64,000 nt of DNA from Rhodopseudomonas pentothenatexigens (GTDB taxonomy: Bacteria > Pseudomonadota > Alphaproteobacteria > Rhizobiales > Xanthobacteraceae): contig NZ_UFQQ01000005.1 of NCBI RefSeq assembly GCF_900218015.1, forward strand, positions 1 to 64,000, in the 5' to 3' direction. Both the position numbers and the translations under genes were made by a program. The notes below the pieces were generated by a model that ran no database searches, was not told the DNA's origin, and was given only the letters and a program-made list of their open reading frames with translations. Positions 21,323 through 29,324 of this stretch are shown here, in pieces; position 1 is the first letter of the stretch; every line of letters begins with the position of its first letter.

Positions 21323-22945
21323 CTATCGCCGCGCCGCGTTCGCGCCATCGCCGTTCTCCTCGAGCGCACGGCGCAGCCGGCGGATGATCACGTTGCGCGC
21401 ACGTTCGTCGGCCGCGGCCTCGACGTTGGCGTTGATGTCGAGCAGCAGCTTCGACATCTCGTTGTGCCAGTCGAGCCTGACCACGGACTCCGGTTCGAGT
21501 CGGCGGCGATGCTTGCCGTCGAGCGCGGTCGGCACCGGCGCGGCGAGTTCGTAGACGTCGTCGAGCAGCGGCTGAAAGATCTTCGCCGCCGGCAGCACGC
21601 CGTCGCAGAGGCGCTCGGCCAATGCGGCGATCGCCGCTTCCTCGCCATGGCTGAGAAACAGCCCGCGGTCGATCGGGCGGCGCTCCGTGATCCAGCGGAC
21701 CAGTTCGCCGGCGTCGGCATGACCGGAGTAATCGTCAATGCGCCGGATCTTGGCTTTGACCCGGACCTCCTCGCCCATGATCCGCACCGCCTCGGCGCCG
21801 TCTTCGAGAAAGCGGCCGAGCGTGCCGCTCGCCTGATAGCCGACCAGCAGCACGGTGCCGGACGAGCGGCACAGCCAGCGCTTGAGATGATGCCGGATGC
21901 GGCCGGCGTCGCACATGCCGCTGGCCGCGATGATGACGTGGAAACCATTCAGCCTGGCGATCGCCTTGCTTTCCTCCACGGTCTCGGTGAAGCGCAGATG
22001 TGGCGAGGCCAGCAGCCGTTCGACATCGACGTCCTCGTCGAGATCGGCGGCGTGGTGGCGGAACACTTCGGTGGCGCGGATCGCCAGCGGCGAATCCAGG
22101 AAGATCGGCGCGCTCGGGATGGTGCCTTTCTCCATCAGGTCGATCAGGTCGACGATCAGCTCCTGGGTACGTTCGACCGCGAAGGCCGGGATCACCAGCG
22201 CGCCGCGCGCTGCGGCGGCGGCGTTGACCTCGGCGGCGAGTCGCTGGTGGCGAAGCGCGGGCGAAGTCGGCTCGCGCACCCGGTCGCCATAGGTCGATTC
22301 GCAGATCACGTAGTCGAAATGCGACGGCGCTTCCGGATCGGGCTGCAACAGCTTGCCGTCGGGGCCGATGTCGCCGGAGGCGAGCAACCGCAGCGCCGAC
22401 GACGAGCGGCCTTCGCCGTCGATCTCGATTTCGATCGAGGCCGAGCCGAGCAGATGGCCGGCGTTCCAGAACCGCGCGCGCACGCCGGGGAGAACGGTTA
22501 TCCAGCTCTGATAATCGACGGGATAGAACGACGACAGCGTCGCGATCGCGTCGGCCTGGGTATAGATCGGGCTGACCTCGGGCTTGCCGCGCGCGGCGTT
22601 GCGGCGGTTCAGCATGATCACTTCCGATTCCTGGATGCTGCCGGCGTCGGGTAGCATGTAGGAGCACAGATCGATGGTGCCGCGCGTCGCCAGGATTCGC
22701 CCGTTGAAGCCGTCGCGCACCAGCTTGGGCAACAGGCCGCAATGATCGATATGGGCGTGCGTCAGCAGCACCGCGTCGATCTCGGACGGGCGGAACGGAA
22801 ACGCGCCGTAGTTCAGCTCCTTCAGCGTCTTCTGGCCCTGGAACAGGCCGCAATCGACCAGGAAGCGCTTGCCCTTGGTCTCGAACAGATAACAGGAGCC
22901 GGTGACGGTGCGCGCAGCGCCGCAAAATCGGATGGTGACGCTCAT
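21323..22945 (-). CDS. MBL-fold beta-CASP ribonuclease
   Basis: 540 residues. The metallo-beta-lactamase motif HAHIDHCG (about residue 63) and DCGLFQGQK (about 31) give the two-zinc site; the beta-CASP insert follows, with ICESTYGDR (about 210), IPAFAVERTQELI (about 250) and IIAASGMCDAGRIRHHLK (about 345). This architecture is that of CPSF73-like bacterial and archaeal RNases acting as endo- and/or 5'-3' exoribonucleases. Its start codon overlaps the stop of the PRPP-synthase-like gene (ATGA), so it is the third gene of a coupled operon with nucleotide-metabolising enzymes. The C-terminal 80 residues lack KH domains. Confidence 0.88.
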   Translation of the reverse strand: MSVTIRFCGAARTVTGSCYLFETKGKRFLVDCGLFQGQKTLKELNYGAFPFRPSEIDAVLLTHAHIDHCGLLPKLVRDGFNGRILATRGTIDLCSYMLPDAGSIQESEVIMLNRRNAARGKPEVSPIYTQADAIATLSSFYPVDYQSWITVLPGVRARFWNAGHLLGSASIEIEIDGEGRSSSALRLLASGDIGPDGKLLQPDPEAPSHFDYVICESTYGDRVREPTSPALRHQRLAAEVNAAAAARGALVIPAFAVERTQELIVDLIDLMEKGTIPSAPIFLDSPLAIRATEVFRHHAADLDEDVDVERLLASPHLRFTETVEESKAIARLNGFHVIIAASGMCDAGRIRHHLKRWLCRSSGTVLLVGYQASGTLGRFLEDGAEAVRIMGEEVRVKAKIRRIDDYSGHADAGELVRWITERRPIDRGLFLSHGEEAAIAALAERLCDGVLPAAKIFQPLLDDVYELAAPVPTALDGKHRRRLEPESVVRLDWHNEMSKLLLDINANVEAAADERARNVIIRRLRRALEENGDGANAARR

Positions 22946-23853
22946 GCGCGGGTCTCCTTGGTCGTCTTGCCGATCTCGCCCTGCAGCGTCTCGACGAACA
23001 GCTCGTCGAGCATAATCGCATTGGTCGGGTGCGGCACGGTGTGGGTGGAGCGGATGCTGCGGATGCCGGCGGCGGCGAAGTCGCGCAGCATTGCCGGTGG
23101 AAACAGCGCGTGGGTGATCACCGCGTCGACCGACGTCGCGCCTGCACCGAGCAGCGCGCGGGTGCAGGCGATCAGCGTGCCGCCGGAGGAGACGATGTCG
23201 TCGACCAGCAGTGCCGGCCGGCCCGCGATCGCGCTGGCGTCAGGGAGTGCGATTTCCACCGAGCGGTCGCCGTGGCGGATCTTCTGCGCCACCGCGGATC
23301 GTGTGCCGATCAGTTTGGCGAGCGCATCCACCCATTGCTGGGATTCGGAATCCGGTCCGACCACCACCGTGTCAGGATCGAGCGTGCCGCGCAGCGCCGC
23401 GGCGATCGCCGGCATCGCCGACAATTCATCGGCTGCGATCCCCGGGAAGACGTCGCCGAGCCGCGGCGTGCGATGCAGATGCGGATCGACGGTGATGACG
23501 CGGTCGACCAGCCCCGCGAGCAGCCGCCCCATCGCCTTCTGGCTGATCGCGTCGCCGGGGCGGAACGCGACGTCCTGGCGCATGTAGCAGAGATACGGCG
23601 CCAGCAGCACCAGCCGGCTGCAGCCTTCGCGGCGCAGAGCTTCGGCGGCGAACAGGATGGTCACCAGCTTGTCGTTGGGTTGGTCGAGCGGCAGATACAG
23701 GATGGTGGTCGCGGCTGTGGGGGCGACATTGACGGCGATCTCGCCGTCCGGAAAGCGGTGCTGCGTGATCAGATGCGCTGGGATCCCGAGCCGTGTCGCG
23801 AGCCGGGTCGCATCGTCCGCAGCGGAGTCCAGATAGCGCAGCGCGACGCTCAC
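22942..23853 (-). CDS. prs: Ribose-phosphate pyrophosphokinase homologue
   Basis: 303 residues from a GTG start at 23853 that overlaps the upstream stop (GTGA). The phosphoribosyl loop reads [20 protein letters not shown] (about residue 205), equivalent to the DDIIDTGGT motif of PRPP synthases; QRFPDGE-like [12 protein letters not shown] (about 30), [15 protein letters not shown] (about 88) and VDPHLHR (about 120) match the ATP/ribose-5-P site in divergent form. It makes, or in reverse consumes, PRPP. It is clearly not the standard housekeeping form, and sits between an AMP/thymidine phosphorylase homologue and a beta-CASP RNase. Confidence 0.85.
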
Positions 23854-25394
23854 GACACCAAGTCCAGGTCGGCGGGTGTGTGATGATTGATCGAGTAGCC
23901 GGACTCCGTCTGCGCCGCTGCCAGCGCCAGATCGAATTCGGCGCGGTCGGACGCGTACACGCGATACAGAGGTTCGCCCTTTTCGACGCGGTCGCCGATC
24001 TTCTTGAACAGGTCGATGCCGGCGCCCTTGGCGACCGGTGCGCCGGCGGTGCGGGCGAGGCGATTGATCCGCAGGCAGTCGATGCCGTTGACGACGCCGT
24101 CGGCGCTCGCCAGCACGTCGGCGGCGAGGTGTCCGAGCTCGGCGGGGCACGGCGACGGCCCTTGCGCGTCGATGATCTGCTGCATCTTCTTGAGCGCCGC
24201 GCCGCTGTCGAGCAGTTGCTTGGCGCGGGCATAGCCGGTGCCGCCGCGGAGCTTCGGATCGTATTCCAAGAGATGCGCGGCGAGCCGCAGCGACTTTTCG
24301 CGCAGGTCCGCCGGCGCGTCCGGCTCGTTGCCGAGCACCGCCATCACGTCGCGCGCTTCCAGCACCGGCCCGATGCCGCGGCCGATCGGCTGGCGGCCGT
24401 CGGTGGTCACCACCTCGACGCCGATGCCGAAATGATCGCCGACGAACTCGAACAGCTTGCGCAGCCGCATCGCCTCGTTGGCGTTGGCGACCTTCGCCGA
24501 CGGGCCGACCGGGAAGTCGATCAACAGCCGGGTCGAGCCGGCGGCGAGCTTCTTCGACATGATCGAGGCGACCATCTGCTCGGGCGTGTCGAGGCTGAGC
24601 GGACGTTCGACCGAAATCAGGATGTCGTCGGCCGGCGACAGGTTGACGTGGCCGCCCCACACCAGGCAGCCGCCGCAACTGTGCACAACGCGCTTCATCT
24701 GCTCGACGTCGAGATCGACCCGCGCCAGCACCTCCATGGTATCGGCGGTGCCGGCCGGTGAGGTGATGGCCCGCGACGAGGTCTTCGGGATCAACAGCCC
24801 GTGCGCGGCGACGATCGGCACCACCACCATGGTGGTGCGGTTGCCCGGAATGCCGCCGATGCAGTGCTTGTCGACGACGATCGGGGTGTCCCAGGCCAGC
24901 TTGGTGCCGACCGAGGCCATCGCGCCGACCAGCGCCAGCAGCTCGTCGGTCGAGGTGAAGCGCGCGGCGCTGATCAGGAACGCGGCGATCTCCATGTCGG
25001 AGTAGCGGAAGTGCGCGAGGTCGTCGACGATCGCGGTGATCTCCGCGGCCGACAGCGTGTGGCCCTGGATCTTGGCGCGTACCGCGTCCAGGCTCGCCGG
25101 TGAGCGCGCCGGCGTCACCGACACCGCACTGCCGACCGGCTCGGCGAAGCGGCGGAACGCCGGCTCGGACAGGCCGAGTTCGTCGGGGCCGATCAGCGCG
25201 TCGTCGTCGGTGATCATCAGCGTCGCCAGCAGCACCTTGCCGCCGATCCGCAGTTCGACGCGGCTGAAGCCGCGGAACACGTCGGGACGCAAGGCATGAG
25301 AGCGGCGGGAGATCACCGCGACGTTCTCGCGGCCGGTGTCGAGGCTGATCCGCCGGATGGTCAGCGGCGGGCGGGTGAGATCGGGAGCATTCAA
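23850..25394 (-). CDS. Thymidine phosphorylase / AMP phosphorylase family enzyme (long form)
   Basis: 514 residues, longer than enteric DeoA (about 440) because of an extra N-terminal domain (residues 1-85), as in archaeal AMP phosphorylases. [16 protein letters not shown] (about residue 172) is the phosphate-binding segment, and [20 protein letters not shown] (about 205) the substrate-binding segment. The C-terminal domain has [15 protein letters not shown]. Reactions in the family are nucleoside or NMP plus phosphate giving base plus ribose 1-phosphate or ribose 1,5-bisphosphate. First gene of a three-gene coupled operon. Whether it prefers thymidine or NMPs cannot be told from sequence; context favours NMPs (inference). 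Confidence 0.85.
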
Positions 25395-25544: not shown

Positions 25545-26426
25545 TCAGATGCCGGCCGATGCCATCGCGCGGCCCAGTTGCTCGCGCAGCCGCGCCAGCG
25601 GCGCATCATGTTCGCGCACCAGGCGGAAACCGAGATGGATCGGCGGCAGCCCGGCCGAGCAGCCGCCGGCCTTGGCGTCACGGATGAAATCGGACACGTA
25701 GGCGCGGTGCCGGCCCTCGGCGACCCGCACGCCACAATTGGCGGTTTGCGCCTGCGGCCGGCCGACCGTATCGATCGCGGTGCGGTCGAAGCAGGTGGTG
25801 GTCCATTCCCAGACGTTGCCGGACAGATCGAGCAGCCCGCGCTCGTTGGCGCCGAAGCCGCCGAAGCTGCGCAGGGTGGTCGAGAGATCGTCACGATCGG
25901 ATTCGCGCTCGTAGCGGGCAATCCAGCGCACCGATGGATCGTCGCTGTCGGATGCCAGGCCGTCGTCCTTGAATTTGCTGCCGGCCGCATAGGCCCATTC
26001 GGCGTCGGTCGGCAGCCGGTAGTGCGCGCCGGTCCTGCGCGACAACCACCCGGCATAGGCGGTGGCGTCCTGCCACGACACCTGCACCGCGGCGCGATCG
26101 GCACGGATCGCGGTGCCGGCGGGCATCGGGTGGCAGGTGCCGTCGTCGACGCAGAGCTGATAATCGGCCGCGCTGACCTGATGCAGCATGATCGACAGCG
26201 GCCGGTCGAAGCGTAGCTCGGTCCGCGGCGCCTCGATCTGTCGGCCGTCGCGGGTGAATTCGCCGGGCAGCCGATAGTCCGTCGCGCCCGGCGCGATCTC
26301 GACCATCGCCTGCCGGCCGTCGAGCCCCGCATCGCCCTGGCCGATCACCAGCGGCGTCACCGCCAAAGGCGTGGCGAACCCGACGAGGGCGACGAGGGCG
26401 ATCTTGGCTTTGAAGGCGAGCAGCAT
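25545..26426 (-). CDS. nirV: NirV-like formylglycine-generating-enzyme-family protein
   Basis: 293 residues. An N-terminal hydrophobic stretch (IALVALVGFATPLAVTPLV) suggests export or anchoring. The SUMF1/FGE domain is visible: SWQDATAYAGWLSRRTG (about residue 127), YRLPTDAEWAYAAGS (about 147) and LDLSGNVWEWTTTCFD (about 208). It lies directly downstream of nirK, the usual location of nirV in denitrifying alphaproteobacteria. The function of NirV is not settled; maturation or support of nitrite respiration is assumed from gene association. A palindromic repeat separates it from nirK. Confidence 0.85.
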   Translation of the reverse strand: MLLAFKAKIALVALVGFATPLAVTPLVIGQGDAGLDGRQAMVEIAPGATDYRLPGEFTRDGRQIEAPRTELRFDRPLSIMLHQVSAADYQLCVDDGTCHPMPAGTAIRADRAAVQVSWQDATAYAGWLSRRTGAHYRLPTDAEWAYAAGSKFKDDGLASDSDDPSVRWIARYERESDRDDLSTTLRSFGGFGANERGLLDLSGNVWEWTTTCFDRTAIDTVGRPQAQTANCGVRVAEGRHRAYVSDFIRDAKAGGCSAGLPPIHLGFRLVREHDAPLARLREQLGRAMASAGI

Positions 26427-26566: not shown

Positions 26567-27691
26567 TTAGTTGGTCGGGCCGCCCGGGATCGGGCCGGGG
26601 GCGCTGACCTGCTTCATCAGGTCGTCGTTCCACTTGCCGTCGACCTTGAAGTGCGCGGTGGCGCCGAGTTCGACCGCTTCGATCAGGTTGTGGTTGACAT
26701 AGGCGTACACGCCCGGCTGCTTGAAGGTGTACAGCGCAGCTCCGGCCGAGCCGCCGCGGATGAACCAGGTTTCCAGATTGGTCTCCGGCGGATTGGCGAA
26801 TTTGCCGGTCTCCCAGACGTAGTCACCGTGGCCGCCGATGATGTGCGGGCGGGTGTCGCGGTTGGCCTGCGAATGCACGATCAGCACCGTCTCGCCGACC
26901 TTGGCGGGCATCGCGTTCTTGCCGGTCAGCGCCCCGACCTTGCCGTTGAACACCACATGGGTCGGGGTCAGCTTGCGCATCACTTCCACCGTGTCGGTGT
27001 AGGATTCGGCCGGCGAGCCGTAGGCCTTGTATTTTCCGTGCTCGTCCTTCGGCACGTACATGTCCTGCTCGCCGACGTAGTAGATGCGGTCGTAGTGCAG
27101 CGGCTTGCCGTCGCGGTCCTTCAGTCCCTCGCGCGGCAGCACCATCATGGCGCCGTTCATGCCGGAGACGACGTGCCACGGGATCATGTTGCCGCCCGGG
27201 GCGCAGTGATACACGAAGGTGCCGGCGCGGTCGGCCTTGAACCGCAGCACCACCTGTTCGCCGGGATTGATCAGCGTCAGCGCGCCGCCACCGAGCGCGC
27301 CGGTCGAGGCGTGAAAGTCGATATTGTGAGGCATCGTGTTGGTGGCGGGATTGACCAGCGTCAGTTCGACATAGTCGCCCTGGTGCACCACCATCAGCGG
27401 TCCGGGCATCGAACCGTTGAAGGTCATTGCCTGGAATTTGGTGCCGTCTTCGTCGATCACCACTTCCTTTTCCTGCACCACCATCTTGAATTCGACGATC
27501 TTGGGGCCGTCCTTGGTGGCCTGCTGATGCGCGTGCACGAACGGCGGTGCGACCAGTTCGACCTTCTGGCGCGGCAGCTTGGAGATGTCCGGCTCGGCGG
27601 CTGCTGCGGCGGCAGGCACCACGGTCGGTGCGGCGCTCATCAACAGGGCGGTCGCGGCGACGCTCAGCAGAGTATCTCGACGATTCATCAT
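26567..27691 (-). CDS. nirK: Copper-containing nitrite reductase (NO-forming)
   Basis: 374 residues from ATG 27691, with AAGGA about 8 nt upstream. A twin-arginine signal ([20 protein letters not shown]) sends the folded trimer to the periplasm, where nitrite is reduced to NO. Copper motifs are intact: [15 protein letters not shown] (about residue 120; type 1 and type 2 His ligands), [20 protein letters not shown] (about 160; Cys and His of the type 1 site) and [10 protein letters not shown] with the Met ligand. [11 protein letters not shown] (about 285) carries the third type 2 His region. Divergently placed Crp/Fnr-type boxes and the neighbouring nnrR suggest induction by NO under low oxygen. 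Confidence 0.97.
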
Positions 27692-27759
27692 GGCGGTGGT
27701 CCTTGCGGCTGGATTGAAACTCGGCTGGCGCAACCATGCTCCTGCCGCGCTGCCGCTAT

Positions 27760-27928: not shown

Positions 27929-28153
27929 ATGGCGATTGACCGCACCCTCGTAGTCGAAGACGTGATGCGCCGCTGGCCGGCGACGATCCGGGTGTTCCTG
28001 GATTTCAAGCTCGCCTGCGTCGGCTGCCCGATCGCGACGTTTCACACGATCGAGGATTCCTGTCATGAGCACGGCATCGCCGAGGCGCCGTTCCTGGCGG
28101 CGCTGCGTGAGGCAGTGGCGAAGTCTCAGGAGGTCTTGTCGTCGGGCGCCTGA
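27929..28153 (+). CDS. DUF1858 domain protein
   Basis: 74 residues. VVEDVMRRWPATIRVFLDF followed by KLACVGCPIATFHTIEDSC is the DUF1858 pattern (CxGCP), also found at the N-terminus of ScdA/RIC iron-sulfur repair proteins and near hybrid-cluster proteins. The cysteine pair CVGC may sense or handle NO or bind metal (inference). A perfect NnrR-type box precedes it, placing it in the nitrosative-response group with nirK. Its 3' end overlaps the convergent nnrR gene by 28 bp. Confidence 0.85.
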   Translation: MAIDRTLVVEDVMRRWPATIRVFLDFKLACVGCPIATFHTIEDSCHEHGIAEAPFLAALREAVAKSQEVLSSGA

Positions 28154-28836
28154 TCGGCCAGCACCACGAGCTGATGCGGCTCGCGCAGCACGATCTTCTG
28201 CCGGCCGCTTTCGATCAGGCCCTTCTGCTCCCAGCCGGACAGCAGCCGGCTGACGGTGTGCAGCGTGGTGCCGGTCATCTGCGCGATGTCCTGGCGGCTG
28301 ATTGGAAAGTCGATCTGCACGCCATTTTCGACCTTACGGCCGCTCTGCTTGGCGAGCCGCAGCAGCGCATGGGCGACGCGCTGCTCGACCTGCTGGGTCG
28401 ACATCTCCACCACCCGGGAATGCGTCTCCTGCAGCCGGCTGCCGACGGTGAGCAGCGTGTTGGTGGCGAGCTCCGGATATTGCTCGACCAGCCGCGGCCA
28501 CGCCGCGGTCGGCCATGCCAGCACGATCGAGTCGTCGACCGCGGTAGCAGTCGCGGGATAGCGGCTCAGCCCGATCGCCATCGCCACGCCCAGCGTCTCG
28601 CCGGGCGCGACGTATCGCACCACGATCTGCTCGCCGGCGGGCGTCACCTTGCTGGCGCGGACGTGGCCGTGCAGCAGCACGAAGAACGAATGCGCATCCT
28701 CGCCCTGTTCGAACACATGGCCGTTCTTGGGAACCCGGATCGACCGCGCCTCCTGCAGCACGGCGTCGAGCTCCGCCGGGCTCAGCCCAGCAAACAGCGG
28801 CAGTTTCGCAACCAGGGAAGTGTCGATCGTCGCCAT
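28126..28836 (-). CDS. nnrR: Crp/Fnr-family regulator, NnrR-like
   Basis: 236 residues from MATIDTSLVAKLPLFAGL. A cyclic-nucleotide-binding fold (about residues 15-130) lacks the cysteine cluster of FNR, so it is not a [4Fe-4S] oxygen sensor. The C-terminal winged helix has ISRQDIAQMTGTTLHTVSRL (about residue 175), whose recognition helix fits TTG-type half sites. Position beside nirK and two TTG-N8-CAA boxes support NnrR, the NO-responsive activator of denitrification genes. The effector mechanism (probably haem-NO) is from family knowledge. Confidence 0.85.
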   Translation of the reverse strand: MATIDTSLVAKLPLFAGLSPAELDAVLQEARSIRVPKNGHVFEQGEDAHSFFVLLHGHVRASKVTPAGEQIVVRYVAPGETLGVAMAIGLSRYPATATAVDDSIVLAWPTAAWPRLVEQYPELATNTLLTVGSRLQETHSRVVEMSTQQVEQRVAHALLRLAKQSGRKVENGVQIDFPISRQDIAQMTGTTLHTVSRLLSGWEQKGLIESGRQKIVLREPHQLVVLADQAPDDKTS

Positions 28837-28919
28837 CGAGGCTCTCGCGCCAGGGTTCGGTCCGCGCCAGCTAAATCGCGATTGCCGGCGGGGAGCAAGG
28901 GGTAAGCCCAGGGAGAGAT

Positions 28920-29324
28920 CTACGCGACAAGCGGAATATCGGTCAGCGGAAAGTCGTTGCCCTTGCACAGCAAGGGGGCATTCAGAGCTTTGGCCAGCGC
29001 GTAGGCGAAGCAATCTCCGTAGTTGAGAGCTGCTTTGTGGCCGGTCCCTTTCCCGAACCGCAAATGCGCCGAACGCGCGTATCCGGCCTGCTCGGTGGTC
29101 ACGGGCTCGATCCGGATGCCGGCCTCCGCGATGAAGTCATCAAGCCATCGTTCGGCTTTGGCCGGCTGAACGTCCTTTAGTCCACGGAGAACGATCGCAA
29201 TCTCCAGCAAATTGCCCGAGGATAGGACCGGTTGATCGTCGGAGGCGATCAGCCGCGCGAACTGGGCTGCCTCCTGCTCCTCGCGAAAGATCGCAATGAT
29301 CGCCGACGTGTCGATGACGATCAC
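28920..29324 (-). CDS. vapC: VapC-type PIN-domain toxin
   Basis: 134-residue PIN ribonuclease. The acidic active-site residues are all visible: MIVIDTSAIIAI (Asp5), SGNLLEIAIVL (Glu near 41), YGDCFAYALAKA (Asp near 105) and LLCKGNDF (Asp near 124). VapC toxins cut specific tRNAs or rRNA and stop translation when the antitoxin is lost. It overlaps the stop of the antitoxin gene by 4 bp (ATGA), so the antitoxin is made first, as usual. Confidence 0.92.
   Translation of the reverse strand: MIVIDTSAIIAIFREEQEAAQFARLIASDDQPVLSSGNLLEIAIVLRGLKDVQPAKAERWLDDFIAEAGIRIEPVTTEQAGYARSAHLRFGKGTGHKAALNYGDCFAYALAKALNAPLLCKGNDFPLTDIPLVA

Follow-up and report, generated by a model that had tools for sequence, protein, structure and literature searches.

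A widespread proteobacterial operon pairing an NMP-phosphorylase-like enzyme with a PRPP-synthase homologue: a probable role in nucleotide breakdown at low oxygen

A stretch of 64 kb from the genome of Rhodopseudomonas pentothenatexigens (5.38 Mb; contig NZ_UFQQ01000005.1), hereafter the window, carries three overlapping genes encoding, in their order of transcription on the minus strand, a long-form phosphorylase (AMPP), a homologue of phosphoribosyl pyrophosphate (PRPP) synthase assigned to PRK07199 (PRS) and a beta-CASP ribonuclease (CASP). These genes constitute a genuine and widely conserved bacterial operon. Its most likely role is to break the building blocks of RNA down to ribose 1,5-bisphosphate (R15P) when oxygen is scarce, and this R15P probably enters the pentose-phosphate and phosphoketolase pathway and not CO2 fixation. 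Taken as a whole, we favour, with somewhat better than even confidence, the interpretation of the operon as a microoxic module of nucleotide dissimilation, in which nucleoside monophosphates (NMPs) would yield R15P, then ribose 5-phosphate (R5P) or PRPP, and finally the substrates of phosphoketolase.

Results

Conservation of the three-gene arrangement

A first-pass annotation of the window had described three genes joined by two 4-bp overlaps, and both junctions can be read directly in the sequence (Table 1), although the order given in its title was the reverse of the order of transcription. The three families that it named are likewise recovered by profile searches: AMPP exceeds the cut-offs of NF003338 (706.6 against 434 bits) and TIGR02645 (697.6 against 434.6 bits), PRS that of NF005537, the model of PRK07199 (397.4 against 322 bits), and CASP passes the Pfam cut-offs for the MBL, Beta-Casp and RMMBL domains.

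The conservation of the operon, which the same annotation had proposed as a check, is evident from a sample of 144 phosphorylase loci, of which three pairs share identical phosphorylase DNA, so that counts of loci are slightly redundant. PRS shares the gene string of the phosphorylase in 113 of these loci, which argues that the arrangement did not come about by chance. Overlaps of 4 bp recur in 62 of 103 phosphorylase–PRS pairs and in 32 of 51 PRS–ribonuclease pairs, although starts were chosen for their proximity to the preceding stop codon, which biases these figures towards small gaps. Among the 80 named loci, a non-random sample made up of the best matches among at least 576 relatives, the gene directly after the phosphorylase is PRS in 67, the ribonuclease in nine and neither in four, and the ribonuclease lies on the same strand within 6 kb in 43. 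The closest named relative among the matches listed is Rhodopseudomonas sp. B29, with 91% identity in the phosphorylase. Nine named loci, one of them from a strain of Bradyrhizobium diazoefficiens, have a phosphorylase–ribonuclease string lacking PRS (L091, L096, L113, L116–L118, L122, L123 and L155).

Could the three proteins merely share a regulator, as members of a general operon for low-oxygen stress that have no pathway in common? Universal-stress, MgtC and CBS-domain genes stand near some copies of the operon and the ribonuclease is often absent, as such an operon would have it. The tight pairing of phosphorylase and PRS across the phylum, with its 4-bp overlaps, speaks against this explanation, as does the nature of the recurrent partners PhnN and phosphoketolase (see below), which act on neighbouring metabolites; we give it little credence.

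Association of PRK07199 with the phosphorylase

The distribution of PRK07199 was followed in two samples, one of 149 genomes from the family of the window genome and one of 299 genomes from the phylum, supplemented by 14 controls. A phosphorylase is present in 42 of the 149 family genomes (E ≤ 1e-60). PRK07199 exceeds its cut-off in 30 of the 31 family genomes that have a phosphorylase not of the PhnN type described below, and in none of the remaining 118, among which 11 have only a PhnN-type phosphorylase. The phylum test covered 80 of the 299 genomes, 35 with and 45 without a phosphorylase (27 of the latter from f32, the most heavily sampled family). PRK07199 is found in 32 of the 35, 31 of them over the cut-off and one at 299.6 bits, and in none of the 45. 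The three exceptions are two genomes with PhnN-type phosphorylases (G348 and G394, loci L180 and L181) and one whose phosphorylase match is broken by an internal stop codon (G352). Fisher's exact test, uncorrected for relatedness, gives p values of 1e-30 for the family (30/31 versus 0/118) and 2e-22 for the phylum (32/32 versus 0/45, with the three exceptions left out). In the genomes tested, PRS is thus nearly inseparable from the type of phosphorylase that we take to form R15P. In the gene strings of the 144 loci, PRS and PhnN exclude each other: beside the 113 loci with PRS there are 15 with PhnN and 16 with neither, and none has both.

Is PRS itself an ordinary enzyme? An alignment of 115 sequences, 114 from phosphorylase loci and one being the ordinary paralogue of the window genome, shows that the Prs motifs FPDGE, RQD, H, PD, KxR and the DD-loop are conserved in 109–114 of the 114 relatives. 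H125, D168, K191 and R193, which we take to be the catalytic residues of Prs (the roles of the kept motif residues being assumed likewise), are found in all 114. Equally invariant are H127, R128 and E170, which are G, Q and G in the ordinary paralogue; at the position of E170, second after PD, a glycine missing from PRS occupies the five solved Prs chains 1u9y, 4twb, 3dah, 5t3o and 7pn0, the last two of nearly identical sequence. The nearest solved relative is 1u9y, presumably the class III PRPP synthase of Methanocaldococcus jannaschii, which shares the six Prs motifs; PRS differs from it in the HLHR and PDxE motifs carried by all 114 relatives and in being tied to the phosphorylase, and the M. 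jannaschii control matches the PRK07199 model below its cut-off. Because the catalytic residues are kept while H127, R128 and E170 are specific to the family, PRS is probably catalytically active, with an altered substrate site.

The simplest reaction that would suit both the geometry of Prs and a supply of R15P is R15P + AMP -> R5P + ADP. Alternatively, PRS may carry out PRPP synthesis in reverse after the action of PhnN, or form PRPP directly from R15P. We tentatively put forward, as possible rather than probable, the more specific proposal that PRK07199 is not a PRPP synthase and acts instead as an R15P:AMP phosphotransferase, running the Prs reaction backwards with one phosphate fewer; together with the phosphorylase, adenylate kinase and a drain through phosphoketolase, it would draw energy from the cell's own RNA without respiration.

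A more conventional explanation would be that the phosphorylase runs in reverse or within a salvage loop, with PRS serving as an ordinary second PRPP synthase for the re-use of bases under microoxia. The conserved catalytic residues are compatible with it, and phosphorolysis is in principle reversible. A plain PRPP synthase would, however, be expected neither to be tied to the phosphorylase, as in the genomes tested, where PRK07199 never occurs without it, nor to alternate with PhnN in the gene string. Moreover, PRK07199 is an extra copy, since another Prs-like match is present in 29 of the 30 genomes that have it, all but G126, which is 68% complete. We therefore regard the salvage explanation as unlikely.

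Fusions of the phosphorylase to PhnN

PhnN converts R15P to PRPP, according to the relevant portion of PMC9700705. Ten loci (L037–L041, L076 and L079–L082) carry an in-frame fusion of PhnN and phosphorylase, as judged by the absence of a stop codon between the two domains; in L075, L077 and L078 the two are neighbours in different frames, and in L180 and L181 PhnN lies beside the phosphorylase. The two fused proteins scanned in full, L079 and L037, pass both cut-offs, with 183.1 and 178.1 bits for PhnN (TIGR02322, cut-off 156) and 611.7 and 606.2 bits for the phosphorylase (NF003338, cut-off 434). That members of this phosphorylase family are fused to an R15P kinase indicates, independently of similarity scores, that the bacterial branch makes or uses R15P. 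PhnN matches are otherwise common, occurring in 86 of the 149 family genomes (85 over the cut-off).

These PhnN-type loci, which we call type C, have a further peculiarity: in 14 of 15 the PhnN–phosphorylase string includes a gene for a NadC-like phosphoribosyltransferase (the family scan covered the L079 copy only), which in L079 (5138–10543) is close to ABC-transporter genes. Type C strings with the NadC-like gene are possibly a PRPP-generating pathway of base exchange.

Substrate class of the phosphorylase

The identity of AMPP is best approached through its nearest solved relative, 4ga5, which bears the Protein Data Bank (PDB) name 'putative thymidine phosphorylase' and which we take to be the AMP phosphorylase of Thermococcus kodakarensis. 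AMPP scores 346.7 bits against this structure and no more than 129.9 against the thymidine and pyrimidine-nucleoside phosphorylases of the PDB; over the stretches compared, identity is 44.1% to 4ga5 (198 of 449 residues), 33.5% to 2dsj and 30.7% to 1uou. Of 49 core columns (residues 172–290) that are invariant in an alignment of 15 bacterial phosphorylases, the same residue is found in 4ga5 at 42, in 2dsj at 23 and in 1uou at 25, with 18 columns matching the AMP phosphorylase only and two the thymidine type only; the comparison with human thymidine phosphorylase spans the first three alignment blocks. The motifs SSRAITS and GGxPGN are common to AMPP and 4ga5. NF003338 passes its cut-off in 3 of the 14 controls at the stricter threshold, all of them archaea (M. 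jannaschii, Haloferax and Methanosarcina), and not in the Escherichia coli control. The T. kodakarensis enzyme, itself once annotated as a thymidine phosphorylase, acts on every natural NMP and releases R15P, as described in the part of PMC8376864 (2021) concerned.

That the operon is devoted to ordinary deoxynucleoside catabolism by a thymidine or pyrimidine-nucleoside phosphorylase is what database names would suggest, and residues S277 and K281 of AMPP, which we presume to belong to the base site, match both families. AMPP nevertheless misses every thymidine and pyrimidine-nucleoside cut-off (190.5 against 269, 183 against 409.05, 141.7 against 559 and 135.2 against 570.7 bits) and its core residues group with the archaeal enzyme, on which grounds we reject this identity; a fusion to an R15P kinase would, moreover, be hard to explain for a producer of deoxyribose 1-phosphate. 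Such a role for the operon is highly improbable. The first-pass annotation had envisaged an AMP- or thymidine-type phosphorylase producing R15P. Judging from sequence, the production of R15P is indirectly supported by likeness to the NMP phosphorylases and by the PhnN fusions of relatives, whereas the thymidine-type alternative is at odds with scores and residues. The assignment of AMPP as an enzyme like the archaeal NMP (AMP) phosphorylase, and not like thymidine phosphorylase, is largely supported, by inference.

Low-oxygen control

The first-pass annotation saw no link to oxygen, and the regulatory box upstream of the operon, together with the low-oxygen regulation, is new relative to it. 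The FNR/FixK/Nnr-type box ahead of AMPP is the sole exact TTGAN6TCAA in the window (0.38 expected). As 28 of 100 shuffled sequences hold at least one such site, the box is informative by its place and not by its presence. When 330 bases were scanned at the 102 type A loci, those best matched by the window protein, exact boxes were found in 12 (2.0 expected) and boxes with at most one mismatch in 48 (12.5 expected); one of the 144 loci was dropped for too short an upstream sequence. Among type B loci exact boxes occur in none of the 20 where the phosphorylase is not the first gene and in two of the six where it is, with the caveats that positions are meaningless in L042, which is cut at a contig end, and that the site in L168 overlaps the start. 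None of the 15 type C loci has an exact box.

Experimental data are available for the orthologous genes bll3117, bll3116 and bll3115 of B. diazoefficiens, which encode the same three products in a predicted operon. Under microoxia their proteins rise by log2 values of 2.1, 4.4 and 2.9, and their transcripts 5.1-, 7.7- and 15.4-fold, respectively, in the data excerpted from PMC6515984. Deletion of fixK2 lowers bll3117 6.6-fold and bll3115 30.6-fold, and a box ATGATCTGGGTCAA is placed at -74, in the corresponding table of PMC9104804; its half-site ATGA differs from the TTGA of the window. This coordinated expression agrees with the transcriptional linkage that the first-pass annotation had expected of the three genes (PMC6515984, PMC9104804, relevant portions). 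The operon is not marked as a direct FixK2 target in the pertinent portion of PMC6515984, and the portions of PMC6515984 and PMC9104804 that concern these genes propose no function for them. The same table of PMC9104804 also lists the phosphoketolase and acetate-kinase-family genes bll2518–bll2517, lowered about 10-fold in the fixK2 deletion.

Phosphoketolase as a recurrent partner

The gene that separates PRS from the ribonuclease in some type B loci encodes a phosphoketolase (XFP, Pfam E 8.8e-41). Phosphoketolase is a member of the gene string in 11 of the 144 loci, in the orders PRS–XFP–CASP–AMPP (eight), AMPP–PRS–XFP (two) and CASP–AMPP–PRS–XFP (one). These loci are spread over five families (f1, that of the window genome, f11, f31, f32 and f61), and four of the eight PRS–XFP pairs overlap by 4 bp. 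The window genome has a phosphoketolase gene of its own (L164; 1474.5 bits against a cut-off of 962). Two exact FNR/FixK-type boxes, whose starts are 33 bases apart, occur upstream of it (L164, 6388–6434); their target is uncertain, since they lie about 250–280 bases ahead of the likely start.

In the phylum sample the phosphorylase is present in 39 of the 299 genomes, RuBisCO in 68 and XFP in 56. The phosphorylase coincides with XFP in 15 genomes (p 1.7e-3), and 15 genomes with the phosphorylase have neither XFP nor RuBisCO. Both the association with phosphoketolase and that with RuBisCO, considered next, are mild and confounded by relatedness.

The Calvin-cycle alternative

The first-pass annotation had suggested a route from RNA to the Calvin cycle, in which R15P would be isomerized to ribulose 1,5-bisphosphate (RuBP) and fixed by RuBisCO, as in the archaeal pentose bisphosphate pathway. 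RuBisCO itself is available: the window genome has two strong and two weaker, RuBisCO-like matches, and RuBisCO occurs in 18 of the 39 genomes with the phosphorylase against 50 of the 260 others, which is above chance (p 7e-4, relatedness uncorrected). In the family sample, RuBisCO-family genes (E ≤ 1e-60) are present in 14 of 18 type A genomes and in one of 13 genomes with type B only.

It is the isomerase for which the proposal lacks support. R15P isomerase (TIGR00511) exceeds its cut-off in none of the 299 genomes, whereas 3 of the 14 controls pass, and the search that the annotation recommended for this gene elsewhere in the window genome returns a match of 140.8 bits against a cut-off of 314.1. 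The genome has a single gene of the IF-2B family; it follows a gene resembling mtnP, on account of which we take it to be mtnA (mtnP was read from sequence and the other gene from its IF-2B match, neither from the family scan). MtnA as a moonlighting isomerase might serve the window genome; it cannot be the general solution, as 19 of the 39 phosphorylase genomes show no IF-2B-like match at E ≤ 1e-15 (counted by hand from the profile-search list). Furthermore, 21 of the 39 lack RuBisCO at E ≤ 1e-100. No known step leads from R15P to RuBP without the isomerase, although an unknown isomerase is possible. Judged by isomerase, RuBisCO co-occurrence and gene strings, the feeding of RuBisCO is not supported, even with co-occurrence above chance, and we find it quite improbable.

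The beta-CASP ribonuclease

The best solved relative of CASP is TTHA0252 (2.6e-73). The protein falls below the equivalog cut-offs for aCPSF1 (238.8 against 580.2 bits) and for the beta-CASP protein Cas14 (340.2 against 800 bits). The type VII Cas14 model is its best NCBIfam match, and this identity is ruled out by the score.

Discussion

How might the three products work together? In the pathway that we favour, a regulator of the FNR/FixK type would switch on transcription, as the published induction and FixK2 dependence of the B. diazoefficiens orthologue and the matching site in the window suggest. The ribonuclease would help to cut RNA into small fragments, and the phosphorylase, judging from its similarity to the archaeal phosphorylase and from the PhnN fusions, would split NMPs with phosphate into free bases and R15P. 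The co-occurrence and mutual exclusion described above suggest that the PRK07199 protein would then channel R15P, as R5P or by way of PRPP, into the general pentose pool, a task performed in the other branch by the fused PhnN. The operons containing phosphoketolase point to the final steps, in which R5P would pass through pentose-phosphate enzymes to phosphoketolase and yield acetyl phosphate, a source of energy independent of respiration. Gene order, co-occurrence, exclusion within strings, the fusions and the box can be read from the sequences, and the induction of the orthologue from the literature, whereas all the reactions and the path of the ribose are inferred.

Several observations weigh against this pathway. 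AMPP scores below the cut-off of the AMP-phosphorylase equivalog TIGR03327 (488.6 against 535 bits), for which reason we describe it as working like that family without filing it there, and the type C phosphorylases, from which the fusion argument is drawn, are only about 45% identical to AMPP. The window genome encodes a PhnN of its own next to phnM, which means that PRS takes the place of PhnN within the gene string and not within the genome. Its phosphoketolase is encoded on a different contig from the operon, phosphoketolase was not detected in 24 of the 39 phosphorylase genomes, and the co-occurrence with RuBisCO noted above is in excess of chance. Finally, in 34 of the 80 named loci PRS is present with no same-strand ribonuclease within 6 kb, some of these loci being cut short or having the ribonuclease on the other strand; RNA is, therefore, not a general source of the nucleotides.

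The nearest known counterpart is the archaeal NMP phosphorylase system, or 'NMP shunt', of T. kodakarensis, with which the operon shares a homologous long-form phosphorylase. It differs in having no R15P isomerase over the cut-off, in its partners (PRK07199, the beta-CASP ribonuclease or phosphoketolase) and in its low-oxygen control. Of the two marks of the pentose bisphosphate pathway, the window genome has RuBisCO and no isomerase over the cut-off. PhnN of the C-P lyase pathway acts on R15P and is fused or adjacent to the phosphorylase in type C loci; in the window genome it is encoded outside the operon. The phosphoketolase pathway is linked to such operons by the 11 loci with phosphoketolase in the string, and its key enzyme is also encoded in the window genome; the pentose would here, however, derive from nucleotides and not from hexoses. 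Several bacterial species are reported to carry NMP-shunt genes (PMC9700705, in part), and CPR (candidate phyla radiation) bacteria are mentioned in a portion of PMC12628685. In the open-licence literature of PMC, subscription papers lying outside this scope, we recognised no account of the function of this operon, of the PhnN–phosphorylase fusion or of the link to PRK07199.

A relative of an R15P-forming phosphorylase best studied in archaea is now placed in a widespread proteobacterial operon with other partners and a low-oxygen switch. It offers a possible way for purple bacteria, rhizobia and methanotrophs to use RNA under oxygen limitation, and a sharp enzymatic prediction for PRK07199, which is annotated as a PRPP synthase and yet, in the genomes tested, is found only alongside the phosphorylase. 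Should the proposed pathway hold, many annotations of 'thymidine phosphorylase' and 'ribose-phosphate diphosphokinase' would be wrong in their substrate. If PRK07199 were an R15P:AMP phosphotransferase, Proteobacteria could obtain ADP at the substrate level, and ATP via adenylate kinase, from the ribose of RNA when oxygen fails.

Genomic surroundings

Table 1. Operon genes, junctions and upstream neighbours, with positions in the window
Feature	Position	Strand	Details
AMPP, NMP-phosphorylase-like (NF003338/TIGR02645)	23850..25394	-	514 aa from a TTG start; transcribed first
PRS, PRPP-synthase-like (PRK07199/NF005537)	22942..23853	-	303 aa from a GTG start; HLHR at residues 125-128, PDxE at 167-170
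CASP, MBL/beta-CASP/RMMBL RNase-like	21323..22945	-	540 aa from an ATG start; closest to TTHA0252 among solved proteins
AMPP–PRS junction, stop and start overlapping	23850..23853	-	GTGA, 4 bp; read in the sequence
PRS–CASP junction, stop and start overlapping	22942..22945	-	ATGA, 4 bp; read in the sequence
FNR/FixK/Nnr-type box TTGACACCGGTCAA	25505..25518	-	exact TTGAN6TCAA, in the 150-base gap preceding AMPP
FGE-sulfatase-domain protein, neighbour	25545..26426	-	domain search
Copper nitrite reductase NirK, neighbour	26567..27733	-	TIGR02376, 539.7 bits, cut-off 296.3
Crp/Fnr-family regulator, neighbour	28126..29013	-	family and domain search

The neighbour with the FGE-sulfatase domain is presumably NirV-like, given its position next to nirK. 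The region between 26567 and 29013 also contains a DUF1858 domain, of the kind associated with hybrid cluster proteins, and the arrangement is kept in L044 and L084. With NirK, the NirV-like protein, DUF1858 and a Crp/Fnr regulator directly upstream, the operon may come under the same control as denitrification in this organism. Elsewhere, a membrane protein of the MgtC/DUF4010 type (L068, 7482–8765; L071, 11101–12387) follows the phosphorylase in four of the loci with phosphoketolase, two of which have identical phosphorylase DNA.

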